Assembly: GCF_016863275.1 (NCBI RefSeq)
Contig: NZ_BOOO01000016.1
Coordinates: forward strand, 186,001-250,000
From: Planotetraspora mira
Lineage (GTDB): Bacteria; Actinomycetota; Actinomycetes; Streptosporangiales; Streptosporangiaceae
Direction: 5' to 3'
Length of the DNA: 64,000 nt
In this document: positions 8,948 through 15,449 of the stretch, piece after piece
How positions within the stretch are numbered: the stretch's first letter is position 1
How the letters are laid out: each line of letters begins with the position of its first letter
Made by a program: the position numbers and the translations under genes
The notes under the pieces: generated by a model
Told to the model about the DNA's origin: nothing
The model's database searches: none
What the model saw: the letters and a program-made list of their open reading frames with translations, nothing else

Positions 8948-9709
8948 CTAGGAGCCGTACCGCCGGTTACGCGCGGCGTATGAGCGGAGTGCCCGCAGGA
9001 AGTCGACTCTGCGGAAGTCAGGCCAGTAGGCCTCGCAGAAGTAGAACTCGGAGTGGGCGCTCTGCCAGAGCAGGAATCCGGACAGCCGCTGCTCTCCCGA
9101 AGTCCGGATGACGAGGTCCGGATCGGGAAGACCGCGCGTGTAGAGATGCTCCGCGATGTGCTCGACATCGAGGACCTCGACGAGGTCTTCGATGCTCGCG
9201 CCCTTGCTTGCGTGCTCCTGGAGGAGGGAGCGCACCGCATCAGCGATCTCACGTCTTCCTCCATACCCAACCGCAACGTTCACAATCAGCCCGGGACGAT
9301 GCGATGTGGTTTCTTTTGCATCTTTGAGGACACGGGCTGTGTGATCGGGCAGCAGGTCGAGCGACCCCATGGGCGACACGTGCCATCCCTGGTCCACGAT
9401 GTCCTGCACCAGACCCTCGATGACCTGAAGCAACGGCCCGAGCTCAGCCTTGTCCCGGGAAAGGTTGTCGGTGGAGAGCAGCCACAGCGTCACGTATTCG
9501 ACGCCGGCCTCACGGCACCACACCAGCAATTCCGAGATCTTGTCGGCGCCCTTCTGGTGGCCGTGGCTGACGTCGCGCAGCCCCATGGCCCTCGCCCAGC
9601 GGCGGTTGCCGTCGACGATGACACCCACATGCCGGGGGATCTGGTCCGAGGAGAGTTTCCGCTCAAGCATGACCTCGTACAGCTTGTACACGAGATCGCG
9701 CACACCCAT
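8948..9709 (-). CDS. uppS: Cis-prenyl transferase (isoprenyl diphosphate synthase, UppS family)
   Basis: Protein of 253 residues. It carries the UPP synthase signatures HVGVIVDGNRRWARAMG (catalytic Asp) and RTSGEQRLSGFLLWQSAHSE. It makes Z-configured polyprenyl or short-chain prenyl diphosphates used as lipid carriers for wall synthesis. By length and neighbourhood it matches the Rv1086-type (Z-farnesyl) enzyme more than the longer decaprenyl synthase, although product length cannot be read from sequence. The start ATG at 9709 follows GAAGAGGA; an in-frame upstream ATG lacks such a site. It may be read from the MNIO operon, whose last gene ends 54 bases upstream. Confidence 0.9.
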   Translation of the reverse strand: MGVRDLVYKLYEVMLERKLSSDQIPRHVGVIVDGNRRWARAMGLRDVSHGHQKGADKISELLVWCREAGVEYVTLWLLSTDNLSRDKAELGPLLQVIEGLVQDIVDQGWHVSPMGSLDLLPDHTARVLKDAKETTSHRPGLIVNVAVGYGGRREIADAVRSLLQEHASKGASIEDLVEVLDVEHIAEHLYTRGLPDPDLVIRTSGEQRLSGFLLWQSAHSEFYFCEAYWPDFRRVDFLRALRSYAARNRRYGS

Positions 9710-9763
9710 GAAGTCCTCTTCCCTTGCGACCTGGGAGCCTCGGTCAGGCAATTATCGCGGGCC

Positions 9764-10252
9764 TCACGGAGTAGGCGCGCCATGCCCGTCCCCGGCGGCC
9801 GGAAGACGGCCCTGCGCGGTGAGCCAGTCGGCGAAGTCCCTCGCGTCGGCCTGCGAGCCTCCGCCGGGCTTGGGACGGCCCCCGGCGTAGGCGGCGAACG
9901 CCGCGGCGAAATCCGGCCCGAGCGACCTGACCAGATCGGGGCGCCGGCGGGCGACCAGGCCGCGCCGTTTGGCGACGAGGCTGTGCGCCTGGATCCTGAC
10001 GCGCTCCTCGTCGAAACCCTCGGGCACGCCGCCTCCGGCCACCAAGGCCGCCAACAGTGCCCCCTGGGCGGCCCTGAGAGACTCGCGCGCCGCCTGGACG
10101 GACGGCTCCGCATCACGCCCAGGCCTCCCCTCGGCGTCGGGCTCCACATGACGCTCAGGCTTCCGCCCGGCATACGGCCCGGACCTCTGCTCAGCCACCT
10201 GCGGCCCGGGCCCCTGCTCGGTCACGTGCGGCCTGGACCTCTGCTCAGCCAC
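9764..10252 (-). CDS. MNIO partner protein candidate (SCO6045-like C-terminal domain)
   Basis: Protein of 162 residues. The first ~30 residues are three 9-residue repeats of the type [18 protein letters not shown]. The conserved part ([18 protein letters not shown] onward to ARDFADWL) is an alpha-helical domain seen next to DUF692 genes in actinomycetes. Its helical pattern recalls the N-terminal domain of DUF2063/BufC partner proteins that deliver substrates to MNIO enzymes; that comparison is my inference. The GTG start at 10252 overlaps the MNIO stop by 8 bases, so the two are coupled. Only the second half looks conserved. Confidence 0.65.
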
Positions 10253-10258
10253 GTGCGG
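10178..10258. repeat. Three 27-bp tandem repeats at MNIO/partner junction
   Basis: Three consecutive 27-base units (10178-10204, 10205-10231, 10232-10258) of the type CCCGGACCTCTGCTCAGCCA plus 7 bases, with a few differences. They encode the 9-residue repeats at the N-terminus of the partner protein. The last unit spans the MNIO stop codon and the partner start. Confidence 0.85.
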
Positions 10259-11075
10259 CCCGGCCACGCGCCATGGCCGCCCGGATCCGGTCCAGTTCGG
10301 CCGCCATCGCCGTGTTGCTCGGGTAGTCGTCGTCCCACTCGAGCAGGACTCCCGGAGGCCGCACACGGCCGCACAGCTCCGCCAGGATGTCGAGCACCGC
10401 CTCCGGCGCGGCGGCGGTGTGGGTGTCGTGCCAGACGCCGCCGTGGAGGTGTCCTCCGGCCACGTGGACGTAGGCCAGCTCACCGAGAGGAAGCCCGTCG
10501 AGGGCGTCCCGGGCGTCCAGCCCGAGGTTCACCTGGTTGGTGTAGAGGTTCGCCACATCGACGAGCAGCTTCACCCCGGTGCGCTCGACCAATTCACCGA
10601 GGAACTCCGCTTCGGTGAGCTCGTCGTCCGGCCAGCCGAACAGCGCCGCCACGTTCTCCAGCGCGAGCGGAACGGGGAGGGCGGCCTGCGCGAGCCGTAC
10701 GTTCTCGGCGATGACGGTCAGGGCCTCACGGGTGCGGGGAACCGGCAGCAGGTGGCCCGCCTCCAGGTCGCCCTCGCGGACGAACGCCAGGTGCTCGCTC
10801 ACGAGCGGCGCCTCGAGCGCCTCCGCGCAGGCGGCCAGATGGGCGAGGCGCGCCGCGCCGGGCCTGTCCGCGCCGCCGATCCCGAGGGCCACGCCGTGCG
10901 GGATGACCGGGACGCCGCGTGCGCGCAGCAGGGCGAGCGACTTCGGGATCCGGGCCGGATCGACGTTCTCCGCGATCACTTCGACGAAGTCGACGTCCAG
11001 CCGTTCGACGGTCAGGTCGATCTCCGAGCGCCACCCGATGCCGACTCCCAGCTCGGCCCGGTCAGTTGCCGCCAC
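10245..11075 (-). CDS. DUF692 multinuclear non-heme iron oxidase (MNIO) family enzyme
   Basis: Protein of 276 residues, full family length. Metal-ligand motifs of the MbnB/TglH fold are all visible: [56 protein letters not shown] and [10 protein letters not shown]. MNIOs install oxidative modifications on Cys (or other) residues of ribosomal peptides with help from a partner protein. The start GTG 11075 lies inside the 3' end of the upstream gene (14-base overlap) behind GGAGGAGGGGGCTGCGGAG. The neighbours are two Gly/Cys-tailed membrane proteins, the likely substrates, and a partner candidate downstream. The substrate assignment is inference. Confidence 0.88.
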
Positions 11076-12084
11076 CTCCGCAGCCCCCTCCTCCGCAACT
11101 CGATCCGCCGCCGCAGCCGCCGCCATCAGAACCCGAATGACCGCCACCTGAATGACCGCCGTCCGAATGACCACCACCCCAATGACCGCCGCCCGAGTCG
11201 TAACCGGAGTACCCCCAGTCCGAGGCGCCTCCTCCGCAGGACCCGGCCGCACAGCCGCCGGAGCCGTCTCGCCCCCGCACGCCGTGGTCCTGGTCGATTT
11301 CCACCGCTACGGTCTGATCAGGCATCTCAGCCAGCCCGTAGAGGGCCACGCCGCCCGCCACACCGGTGTAGACCGCACGGTCGGCCATGAGGGATGCCGG
11401 CTCGGCCTTTGTGCGCGCGTTCCGGGTCTGCGCGGCCTGGAGGGCATCACGCCCGCTCCTGGTGAGAAGGCTCGGCAGCGACCTCGCGTAACGGCGGTGG
11501 GCGCGCAGGCCGGACGCGGCGGTGACGCCTGCCACGAGCACCGCCCCGACGGCCAGCGGACTCCACGGGAGAAGGCCCGCGATCGGCACCACGAGGGATA
11601 CGGCCGTGACCGCGAAGGCGAGGGCGACCAGGCGCCCCAACCTGGTGTTGGTCGCGTGCGGGCCGTTGAGCGCGCCGTCAGGGAGCAGGAGCCCCGTGGC
11701 GATCAGGCGCAGCTTGAGGTCGGTCATCGCCGGGGCATGGGCGACCTCGTGGCGGATCTCCGACGCCGAGCGCCCTCCCGGTACGGCTGCCAGGTCGAGG
11801 ACGGCCCGCTCGACTTCGTCCGCGGGCGGAACGGTGCCGGCGACGACGGTGACGCGGCCTCCTCGCGCGACGCGGACGAGTTCCCGATCCACGAGCAGTG
11901 CGATCGCCGTGTTGATCACACGACGCGGGCCGCCGGCGAGATAGGCGAGCTCGTAGTGGGTGAGATCGTCCCGGCTGAAGCCGGAGACCGAACGGATCCT
12001 GTGGTGCTCCCGGGTGAAAGCCGACGCCGCGTTCCTCGCGAGAACCGCGACCACGACCGCGACCAGTGGAAGTACGAACTCCAT
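11062..12084 (-). CDS. TIGR04222-type membrane protein with Gly/Cys/His-rich tail (A)
   Basis: Protein of 340 residues. An N-terminal membrane segment ([13 protein letters not shown]) is followed by the family core ([20 protein letters not shown]), two more hydrophobic segments near residues 150-195, and a low-complexity tail over the last ~65 residues. The tail carries five Cys (for example [22 protein letters not shown]) and several GGGH repeats. ATG 12084 has a good AGGAGGG site. It overlaps the MNIO start by 14 bases and is paralogous to the next gene upstream. The tail is the obvious candidate for MNIO modification or metal binding; membrane anchoring sets it apart from secreted bufferins. 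Function is unproven. Confidence 0.8.
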
Positions 12085-12137
12085 GAACGCCCTCCTGGGG
12101 GGAAGGAGGGAGCGCGTGACCACCGCCCGTGTCACCC

Positions 12138-12213
12138 GTACGGCTTGCGCCCCGTCTACCCGTTAGACGCGCGGGTTTCCTCAGAAGTTTCGCATCCGGG
12201 GCGCAGGCCGTAC
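12138..12213 (-). ncRNA. 76-nt inverted-repeat leader element, copy 1
   Basis: Long outer stem (GTACGGCTTGCGCCCC against GGGGCGCAGGCCGTAC, one mismatch) enclosing a second hairpin with arms CGTCTA/TAGACG. It lies 54 bases upstream of membrane protein A and matches copy 2 at about 63 of 76 positions by hand alignment. The strand is set to that of the downstream gene. It may act as a structured leader, an attenuator or a processing site; the class is not one I recognise. Confidence 0.6.
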
Positions 12214-12253
12214 AAGATCGGCGGCAGACGGAGACGCGCTTCCCAGCGGCGCC

Positions 12254-13183
12254 TCAGCCTCCGCATCCGCCGCACCCGCCCCCGCATCCGCCACAGCCGC
12301 CGCACCCCGCCGTGGCCTCTACCCCTCCCGCCGTGGGGCCGGTGGACGCCTGCTCCTTCTCGGGCTCGTGCCCTCGCCCGATCTCCTTCGCGATCCCCTG
12401 ATCGGGCAGTTCGCCCAGGCCGTAGAGCGCCACGCCGATCGCCACGCCGGCGTGGGCGTGCCGTCTCGCCCTCCGCGCCGACGGCTCGCGCCCCGCGGAC
12501 GAGGGCGCCGTACGTGCACGGGCGTCCTGGACGGCCCGCTGCCCTTCCGGGGTGCGCGTGTTCGCCATCAACCGCGAGTGGCGGCGGCGGACGCGGATGC
12601 AGAAAATGGCCGACAGGAGGTTCACCAGCACCGCCGCGACGGACGTCACGCTCCACGAGACGATGCCGATGGCCTGTATCAGGAGCAGAAGCGCGATGAG
12701 GGCGCTCTCGAACACGATGAACCCGCTCAGCACACCGGCGTCCAGCCGGCGCTTCTCCGCGGCCTCGTCGGAGATCAGCAGACCCTTGGCGACCAGGCGC
12801 GTCTCGAGGCCGGTCATCGCGGAGCCCCGCCAGAGTTCCCGGCGGAGCTGAGCCGACCTGACACCGCCGGGACGGGAGGCCGTCGCGAGCACGGCCTGCT
12901 CGACGGCGTCGTCCGAAGTGCGGGCCGACCCGGAGACGCGGTGGATGCGACCTCCCCGCGAGATCCGGATCAGCTCCCGGTTCATGAGCACGACGATCGC
13001 CGTGTCGACCACACGGTGGGGGCCTTCGACGAGATAGGCCAACTCGTAGGGATCGAGCTCACCCTGGCCGGAGGACCCGGCGCCGATGTCCTCGTGCCGA
13101 CCGGCGTCGGCCGATATGGCCGACGCGACGAGCGCGATGAAGCCAGCGATCGCGACGGCGACGACGAGGAGTACGTACTCCAT
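12254..13183 (-). CDS. TIGR04222-type membrane protein with CGG-repeat tail (B)
   Basis: Protein of 309 residues, paralogue of gene A. The N-terminal membrane segment (YVLLVVAVAIAGFIALVA), the core YELAYLVEGPHRVVDTAIVV, hydrophobic segments near residues 145-190 and the stretch ALYGLGELPDQG match A in order. The tail is short and very regular: AGCGGCGGCGGGCGGCGG, five Cys each followed by Gly-Gly. ATG 13183 follows CCAGGAGGTGCC, a strong ribosome site. The tail differs from A in having no His. It sits directly downstream of pckG but behind its own 76-nt leader element. It is a likely substrate of the MNIO encoded two genes on. Confidence 0.8.
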   Translation of the reverse strand: MEYVLLVVAVAIAGFIALVASAISADAGRHEDIGAGSSGQGELDPYELAYLVEGPHRVVDTAIVVLMNRELIRISRGGRIHRVSGSARTSDDAVEQAVLATASRPGGVRSAQLRRELWRGSAMTGLETRLVAKGLLISDEAAEKRRLDAGVLSGFIVFESALIALLLLIQAIGIVSWSVTSVAAVLVNLLSAIFCIRVRRRHSRLMANTRTPEGQRAVQDARARTAPSSAGREPSARRARRHAHAGVAIGVALYGLGELPDQGIAKEIGRGHEPEKEQASTGPTAGGVEATAGCGGCGGCGGGCGGCGG

Positions 13184-13230
13184 GGCACCTCCTGGGGGAG
13201 GAGGAGGCACGCGACGTCACGGCGGCTGTC

Positions 13231-13306
13231 GTACGGCTTGCGCCTCGTCTACTGATCAGACGCTCCGGGTTCCCCAGAATCGTCGCATCCGGGGCGCAAG
13301 CCGTAC
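13231..13306 (-). ncRNA. 76-nt inverted-repeat leader element, copy 2
   Basis: Outer arms GTACGGCTTGCGCC and GGCGCAAGCCGTAC are perfectly complementary (14 bp). The inner hairpin CGTCT/AGACG has a different loop from copy 1. The element lies 48 bases upstream of membrane protein B and 5 bases after the pckG stop, so it could also end or process the pckG transcript. It has the same length and layout as copy 1. Confidence 0.6.
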
Positions 13307-13310
13307 AGGA

Positions 13311-15215
13311 TCAGCCGAGTCGCTTCACCAGGGCGTCGTACTCGGCCCACAACTGCTTCGGCATGTGGTCGCCGAAGGTCTCGAAGTGCGCCGGGATGAG
13401 CGACGCCTCCTCGCGCCAGACCTCGGGGTCGACGGTGAGAAGGAGACGCAGGTTCTCCTCGGAGATGTCCAGCCCCTCGGTGTCGAGGACTGCCGGAAGA
13501 TTGCCGATCGGGGACGGCACGGCCTCCGCCTCACCGTTGAGCCGCTCGACGATCCACTTCAGCACGCGGCTGTTCTCACCGAAGCCCGGCCACACGAACC
13601 GGCCCTCGGCGTCCTTGCGGAACCAGTTGACGTAGTAGATGCGCGGCAGCTTCGCCGCGTCGGCAGCCTCGCCGACCCTGAGCCAGTGCGCGAAGTAGTC
13701 GCCCATGTTGTAGCCGCAGAACGGCAACATGGCGAAGGGGTCGCGGCGCAGTTCGCCGACCTTGCCCTCGGCGGCGGCGGTCTTCTCCGAGGCCACGTTG
13801 GCGCCGAGGAAGACCCCGTGCTGCCAGCTCAGCGACTCGGTGACGAGCGGGACGGCGGTGGCCCTGCGGCCGCCGAACAGGATCGCCGAGATCGGCACGC
13901 CGGCCGGGTCCTGCCACTCACGCGCGATCGTCGGGCACTGCCCGGCGGGAGTGGTGAAGCGCGCGTTCGGATGCGCGGCGGGCTCGCCCGAGTCCGGGGT
14001 CCATGAGCGGCCCTTCCAGTCGGTGAGGTGGGCGGGCGGCTCGTCGGTGAGGCCCTCCCACCAGACGTCGCCGTCGTCGGTGAGCGCGACGTTGGTGAAG
14101 ATGCTGTTGCCCCAGAGGGTCTCGACCGCGTTGGCGTTCGTGCTCTCGCCCGTGCCGGGGGCGACGCCGAAGAACCCCGCCTCGGGGTTGATCGCGTACA
14201 GCCGCCCGTCGGGGCCGAAGCGCATCCAGGCGATGTCGTCCCCGATCGTCTCGACCTTCCAGCCGGGGATCGTCGGCCGGAGCATGGCGAGGTTGGTCTT
14301 GCCGCACGCCGACGGGAACGCGGCGGCCACGTAGCGGGTCTCCCCCTCGGGCGGGGTGAGCTTGAGGATGAGCATGTGCTCGGCGAGCCAGCCCTCGTCC
14401 CTGGCCATCACGCTGGCGATGCGCAGCGCGTAGCACTTCTTGCCGAGCAGGGCGTTGCCGCCGTAGCCGGAGCCGTACGACCAGATCTCGCGGGTCTCGG
14501 GGAAGTGGCTGATGTACTTCGTCTGGCTGCACGGCCAGGGGACGTCCCGCTGCCCCGGCGCCAGCGGCGCGCCCACGGAGTGCACGGCCTTGACGTAGTC
14601 GCCGTGCCCGTCCCCACGCTGTCGCGCCTGTCGCGCTCCGTACTCCTGGTCGCGCTTGCTCAGACCCTCGTTGGCTCGTCCCTCGCTCTCTCGGGCCTGT
14701 CGCGCCGCTCCGCGGTCCTCGATGAGGCGCAGCGCCTCCTCACCCATCCGCGTCATGATCCGCATCGACACGACCACGTACGGCGAGTCGGTGATCTCAA
14801 CGCCCAACTGCGAGATGTTCCCGCCCAGAGGGCCCATGCAGAACGGCACGACGTACATCGTCCGGCCGCGCATGCTGCCCTTGAAGAGGCCGGCGAACGT
14901 CCGCCGCATCTCGTCGGGCGCGATCCAGTTGTTGGTCGGCCCCGCGTCCTCGGCACGCTCCGAGCAGATGAACGTGCGGTCCTCGACCCGGGCTACGTCG
15001 CTGGGGTCGGAGGCGGCGTAGAAGCTGTTGATCCGCTGGGTGAGCCGGGTGAAGGTGCCCTGCTCGACGAGCAGGTTGGTGAGGCGGGTCCATTCGGCCT
15101 CGGAACCGTCGCACCATTCGATCCGGTCGGGCTGGGTCAACTCGGCGATCTCGGCGACCCATGCGGCGAGCTCCGCATGGGTGGTCGGATTCGATACCTC
15201 TACTGAAACTGACAC
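13311..15215 (-). CDS. pckG: Phosphoenolpyruvate carboxykinase (GTP)
   Basis: Protein of 634 residues. It catalyses oxaloacetate + GTP to PEP + CO2 + GDP at the head of gluconeogenesis. The diagnostic segments are [10 protein letters not shown], the kinase loop [12 protein letters not shown] with the reactive Cys, GDDIAWM, and the nucleotide-binding [11 protein letters not shown] and [10 protein letters not shown]. Family members are usually about 610 residues. The excess is a charged insertion of about 36 residues (around 167-204) between LIEDRG and [10 protein letters not shown], rich in Arg, Gln and Glu with ARQAR twice. GTG 15215 follows GAGGAG. DasR-like sites lie in the upstream region. 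Confidence 0.95.
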
Positions 15216-15276
15216 GGGATGGCTCCTCTTGTCGCGGGGCCAAATCATCATCAACGACGAATAGCCGGCGAAGCCA

Positions 15277-15292
15277 ATTGGCGTAGACCATC
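15277..15292. promoter_or_regulatory. DasR-like (dre) operator, pckG-proximal
   Basis: ATTGGCGTAGACCATC contains TGGCGTAGACCA, which differs from the dre core TGGTCTAGACCA at two positions. It is 62 bases upstream of the pckG start. Confidence 0.4.
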
Positions 15293-15449
15293 GAGTTTCC
15301 ACGCCGTTAAATTCGCGATATTCGTCTTCTCCTCCGCCCGGCTCGCCGTTCTGCCTGGCAGAGGGGGTGATGCTGCATGGGGACACACCCATGCGGGCCA
15401 CTTCCGAAGAAACGTCCCGTTCTCCTTACCCGCCTCCCGCGACTTACAC

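Follow-up and report, generated by a model that had tools for sequence, protein, structure and literature searches.

We describe here a four-gene operon in a 64,000-nucleotide stretch of the genome of the soil bacterium Planotetraspora mira (contig NZ_BOOO01000016.1, positions 186,001 to 250,000; hereafter the window), in which an MNIO (DUF692) enzyme and a small helical partner are encoded downstream of two TIGR04222 membrane proteins with Gly/Cys-rich C-terminal tails. The operon is a further member of the described but uncharacterised MNIO-TIGR04222 class. Comparison with related loci shows the tail to be the constant element and its carrier to be exchangeable, because the same tail accompanies related MNIOs on soluble or single-helix proteins of Frankiaceae. 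Judged from sequence, the Gly/Cys tail is most likely the substrate of the enzyme.

Operon organization and conservation

The four genes, all on the minus strand, are given here in order of transcription, with start codons that we picked from the sequence:

12254-13183, minus strand: distal TIGR04222 membrane protein P0003, the upstream paralogue (309 aa; tail CGGCGGCGGGCGGCGG; NCBIfam TIGR04222, E 1.7e-33)
11062-12084, minus strand: proximal TIGR04222 membrane protein P0002, the presumed MNIO substrate (340 aa; NCBIfam TIGR04222, E 9e-32)
10245-11075, minus strand: MNIO (DUF692) enzyme, GTG start (PF05114, E 4.7e-77)
9764-10252, minus strand: partner, putatively DUF2063/MbnC-like, GTG start, without an RRE domain (recognition element of ribosomally synthesised and post-translationally modified peptides, RiPPs)

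The proximal TIGR04222, MNIO and partner genes form a translationally coupled trio, in which the MNIO gene overlaps the P0002 gene by 14 bases and the partner gene overlaps the MNIO gene by 8 bases. A preliminary description of this DNA had claimed both overlaps, a second Gly/Cys-tailed paralogue just upstream and a full-length MNIO with its metal-ligand residues, and all of these are borne out. The PF05114 match scores 259 bits against a cut-off of 25 and covers profile positions 1-262 of 263, and the enzyme matches PDB entries 3bww (E 1.2e-35) and 8hci/8hi7 (E 1.4e-32). Residues H60, E94/H95, E140, D173, N176, H204, D217, H219 and E246, which, going by work on MbnB and TglH, are the presumed metal ligands, are conserved in our alignment (A1) and matched in 3BWW; the candidate ligands are invariant across five rows of A1, and the enzyme was also aligned to 8hci.

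To place the operon among its relatives, we kept the 80 best among 296 relatives of the window MNIO, drawn from one genome per species and taken with flanks of up to 10 kb, and added the window itself (81 loci in all). In 72 of them, a TIGR04222 gene is found upstream of the MNIO gene. The arrangement is not chance, since it recurs in 71 of the 80 other related loci. Among the nine exceptions, L065 and L119 end at contig ends, L053 and L101 have TIGR04222 downstream, and L095 and L106 encode a Cys-tailed protein of another kind instead; no TIGR04222 gene was found within the surveyed flanks of L076, L099 and L117. In the window's order, 149 of 297 genomes have MNIO, 214 have TIGR04222 and 139 have both (odds ratio 13.5, p 2e-17), so that TIGR04222 is present in 139/149 MNIO-positive as against 75/148 MNIO-negative genomes. 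Among the 150 TIGR04222 matches listed, at least 106 are within 5 kb of a listed MNIO. A failure of the two families to co-occur, which the preliminary description had named as grounds for abandoning its proposal, was therefore not observed.

The downstream helical protein, earlier proposed as the partner of the MNIO, holds that place in comparison as well: its domain is present in all 81 loci, window included, it is fused to the MNIO in five, L091, L095 and L106 among them (fusions that require at least three changes on the tree), and the best match of its structure model is MbnC. The window partner matches no Pfam or NCBIfam family, and hence lacks the Pfam DUF2063 signature; this and the position of its gene directly after that of the MNIO fit a PME-type 2 partner. 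Its profile found no matches among PDB sequences. Three direct repeats with 27-base spacing (10175-10263) encode a low-complexity N-terminal extension of the partner.

Tail cysteines and exchange of the carrier

One tail rule, namely 3 or more Cys with 24 or more Gly+Ser in the last 60 residues, was applied to all sets of proteins. It is passed by 69/72 MNIO-proximal TIGR04222 proteins, as against 1/30 in the best-scoring loci from 30 of the order's 75 genomes with TIGR04222 but no MNIO. This comparison is uncorrected for ancestry, and for 25 of the 30 genomes the sample has no MNIO-positive member of the genus. Eleven of the 30 have a Gly-rich end (at least 20 Gly in the last 60 residues) with fewer than 3 Cys. 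Non-proximal copies located up to 10 kb from a related MNIO pass in 12 of 18 cases; P0003, with 5 Cys and 21 Gly in its last 60 residues, narrowly fails. The P. mira genome encodes one MNIO and three TIGR04222 proteins, the third of which has no Cys in its last 60 residues. The comparison shows an apparent dependence of TIGR04222 tail cysteines on the presence of an MNIO.

Exchange of the carrier is seen in Frankiaceae. L095 (Parafrankia) and L106 (Frankia) each have a fused MNIO-partner gene, and the gene immediately before it encodes 452 or 476 residues (stop to stop). These carriers match neither TIGR04222 (own profile, E 2 and 0.54) nor any NCBIfam or Pfam family, and none of their segments reaches transmembrane hydropathy (maxima of 1.39 and 1.26), yet they end in the same Gly/Cys tail as the TIGR04222 proteins. 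Homologues were found in 3/35 genomes of the Frankia family. In the third genome, G589, the end of the homologue is Cys-free and it lies on a different contig from the MNIO. Between the MNIO and partner genes of G589 is a frame of about 90 residues (L242:2631-2900), which from its position and likeness is a putative gene and a candidate minimal substrate; in it a single hydrophobic helix is followed by arginine-rich sequence and a Gly/His/Cys tail. Carrier exchange and this single-helix version supply a small candidate substrate on which the action of the enzyme could be tested. A second, tandem copy of the soluble Cys-tailed protein was noted in L240, with a TGA reported inside the frame. Our literature search found nothing on MNIO in Frankia.

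Predicted fold of the TIGR04222 proteins and probable placement of the tail

Both window proteins exceed the curated TIGR04222 cut-off of 43 bits (NCBIfam), with 110.5 bits for the proximal and 116.2 bits for the distal protein. An AlphaFold2 model of P0002 has a predicted local distance difference test score (pLDDT) of 79.6, and the following parts can be delimited in the two proteins:

11668-11973, minus strand: N-terminal half of the GPP34/GOLPH3-like domain of P0002, residues 38-139
11479-11667, minus strand: transmembrane hairpin of P0002, residues 140-202 (model helices 140-168 and 176-202; hydropathy)
11284-11478, minus strand: C-terminal part of the GPP34-like domain of P0002, residues 203-267, including a weakly hydrophobic segment, 235-250 (structure match only, not profile comparison)
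11065-11265, minus strand: disordered Gly/Ser/His/Cys tail of P0002, residues 274-340 (pLDDT mostly <50; translation)
12257-12391, minus strand: Gly/Cys tail of P0003 with C-terminal CGG repeats, about residues 265-309 (translation)

The match to GPP34/GOLPH3/Vps74 extends over 151-162 residues by structure and over 78 columns by profile. As modelled, the TIGR04222 domain resembles GPP34/GOLPH3, from which it differs by an N-terminal helix, the inserted transmembrane hairpin and the C-terminal tail. Pfam GPP34 gave no match above its gathering score on the window TIGR04222 protein and weak matches in 2 of 68 TIGR04222 relatives (best E 0.0013), and a sequence search of PDB with P0002 returned no matches. 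In the alignment of these 68 proteins (A3; window rows 11065-12084 and 12257-13183), 11 weakly match DUF2207_C (best E 5e-4), a bacterial membrane family that may be related. An RRE-like role of the winged-helix part, prompted by weak HTH_Crp_2 matches (10/68), was dropped because the GPP34 match accounts better for the fold.

Contrary to the published view and to the preliminary description, the tail is probably on the cytoplasmic side, a placement for which charge bias, the weak hydrophobicity of the fourth hydrophobic segment (segment 4) and the Frankiaceae carriers all argue. The leading alternative is export of the tail after modification in the cytoplasm, with the product serving as an extracytoplasmic metal binder like a bufferin. 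This follows Antoine et al. 2025, who placed the tail in the periplasm from predicted topology (PMC12452194). Segment 4 is weakly hydrophobic and does reach 1.6 in 11/64, and the tails have hardly any K/R (mean 0.5), a common trait of exported tails. However, segment 4 falls inside the GPP34-like match and is short or charged in several Cys-tailed members (e.g., L055, L063, L073), arginines sit between helix and tail in the single-helix Frankiaceae version, and the soluble carriers have no helix at transmembrane hydropathy. On balance we regard export as rather unlikely. The earlier proposal that the tails are modified while attached to the membrane thus holds in part: the MNIO probably targets the tails and not a released peptide, but the envisaged surface structure is disfavoured by the evidence for a cytoplasm-facing tail.

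Alternatives to tail modification

A second alternative leaves the tails unmodified: they would bind metal as they are while the MNIO acts elsewhere, or would be a docking site or iron source only. In its favour, Cys-tailed TIGR04222 genes also occur away from MNIO genes. In MNIO-positive genomes, 11/23 orphan TIGR04222 genes pass the tail rule (the third P. mira copy was taken together with 22 of the 42 listed matches that lie away from any listed MNIO; some are cut by contig ends). In addition, the TIGR04222 gene of the sole MNIO-free genome to pass, G238 (L207), lies between presumed pckG and uppS genes, and different genes take the places of MNIO and partner. Against this, the Cys-Gly tail is absent from the other 29 of 30 MNIO-free genomes, and gaps of 12, 127 and 169 bases leave little space for another precursor in the window operon. 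The 169-base gap contains a single minus-strand open reading frame of at least 20 aa, which is Cys-free, and the 127-base gap was listed down to 50 aa only. On balance we consider unmodified tails improbable. The orphans L156, L158-L161, L163-L166, L168 and L170 share a pre-tail motif, mostly CCAPGHCGSY (CCAPGRCGSY in L159, CCAPGHGGS in L161 and L170), followed by another type of Gly-rich tail.

Positional inheritance, by which genes were fixed side by side in one ancestor without joint function, would fit the common neighbourhood (pckG and uppS, named from sequence) of the relatives looked at, but is made very improbable by the translational coupling, the repeated MNIO-partner fusions and the replacement of the tail carrier while the tail was kept. 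In the window the flanking genes are, as we presume from their sequences, an isoprenyl transferase (uppS-like, 8948-9751) and a GTP-type phosphoenolpyruvate (PEP) carboxykinase (pckG, 13311-15401). Searches of PHROGs with three window proteins gave no matches.

Promoter and flanking repeats

Two features precede the TIGR04222 genes:

12164-12191, minus strand: extracytoplasmic function (ECF; sigma-E-like) promoter of the proximal gene, GAAACTTC-N14-CGTCTA, i.e., AAC-N17-CGTC (sequence motif)
13230-13315, minus strand: duplicated promoter region ahead of the distal gene, 83% identical to 12137-12222, with the -35 block degenerate or lost

Comparison shows AAC-N17-CGTC upstream of the proximal TIGR04222 gene in 43/72 loci, window included; these loci are related, and 43 is not a count of independent events. 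A spacer of 18 was found in 7 loci, other spacers in 0-3 and the reverse strand in 4, and 200 rounds of shuffling gave a mean of 0.4 and a maximum of 3. The layout is that of Streptomyces coelicolor promoters of sigma-E, an envelope-stress regulator (PMC6767563), and the window promoter fits this type (AAC, 16-17 bp, CGTC upstream of the start). Since such a promoter precedes 43 of 72 operons, envelope-stress control via an ECF sigma factor is suggested, and the promoter hints at conditions under which the operon could be studied. A search of the P. mira genome for a wider regulon (motif with at most one mismatch) gave 1 site versus 2 for the backward control, so that nothing can be said about other target genes of the sigma factor.

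In 12137-12222 and 13230-13315, inverted-repeat arms enclose the promoter, and both 86-nt copies fold well (z -3.7 and -6.1). Among 47 promoter sites (43 proximal and 4 distal), a 17-20 bp stem around the promoter exceeds all 50 shuffles in nine: the two copies in the window, five more sites in Planotetraspora and two in Microbispora (L080, L085). Paired changes are seen between these genera, and the remaining 38 sites have no clear stem. Rfam gave no match for the 86-nt copies, as the four hits listed score far under its gathering thresholds. On both counts, a riboswitch or other structured RNA was rejected as regulator of the whole class. We take the stem to be an element specific to one lineage that surrounds an older promoter and is perhaps a terminator of the preceding gene, though it may still be a functional structure. 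A CGTCTA...TAGACG pair inside the repeat element, a possible operator, overlaps with the -10 block.

Proposed mechanism

We infer that an envelope-stress-type ECF sigma factor, suggested by the promoter, would induce a membrane protein that has a GPP34/GOLPH3-like domain anchored on the inside of the membrane, with the disordered Gly/Ser/His/Cys tail attached to it. The MNIO and its small MbnC/DUF2063-like helical partner, which lacks an RRE, would oxidatively modify the tail cysteines in the cytoplasm. The tail would remain attached, most likely on the cytoplasmic side, where its role could be to bind copper or a different soft metal, or to buffer stress at the membrane in some other way. That the tail is the substrate and also stays tethered in the cytoplasm is a combination towards which we lean, with clearly less assurance than for the substrate role alone. 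MNIO chemistry is known on peptides; the target here would be the tail of a whole membrane protein that is not released at any stage. Should the tail be cytoplasmic, its published interpretation as periplasmic and functionally bufferin-like must change.

More tentatively, and with somewhat less than even confidence, the MNIOs of this clade may make no exported peptides and instead write a metal-binding modification on a portable low-complexity "CGG tag". On a GOLPH3-like domain, a single helix or a soluble protein, such a tag would give a tethered, cytoplasm-facing array induced by envelope stress. If so, the system would be one of intracellular protein modification rather than a RiPP system.

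Comparison with known systems

The pairing of MNIO with TIGR04222 and the idea of tail modification are not new, as Antoine et al. 2025 described the former and proposed the latter. According to that paper (PMC12452194), TIGR04222 proteins make up 40% of more than 1,000 signal-peptide-less Cys proteins preceding MNIO genes, and subsets are proposed as MNIO substrates via the C-terminal tail; more than a quarter of these TIGR04222 proteins lack C-proximal Cys, and a third of TIGR04222 genomes lack MNIO. Gene families, gene order, the Cys-rich C-terminal tail as proposed substrate and the PME-type 2 partner are the same here, whereas the partner is present in 81/81 loci of our clade as against "at least 10%" of all TIGR04222 clusters in the paper. 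Its main text, supplementary files aside, contains no mention of GPP34, GOLPH3, DUF2207 or a promoter. As far as the literature was searched, the resemblance to GPP34, the ECF promoter, carrier exchange and cytoplasmic placement of the tail are new here. In a Pseudonocardia cluster, a TIGR04222 protein has been called a ribosomal peptide (PMC5183585).

Bufferin systems (Buf1/Buf2, BufB-BufC) likewise combine an MNIO with a DUF2063-type partner and a Cys substrate, and sigma-factor genes are reported in Buf1 clusters (PMC12452194). They differ in that the candidate substrate of the window operon is a multi-helix membrane protein, the partner has no RRE and the window MNIO scores 183.5 bits with the BufB equivalog model, below its cut-off of 310. 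Pfam and NCBIfam scans of the four window proteins gave no DUF2282/Buf match, and thus no bufferin precursor, defined by a Sec signal peptide with a Buf signature. With methanobactin MbnB-MbnC the operon shares an MNIO with a small helical partner whose model best matches MbnC, but its substrate would be a large, tethered protein in place of the small peptide.
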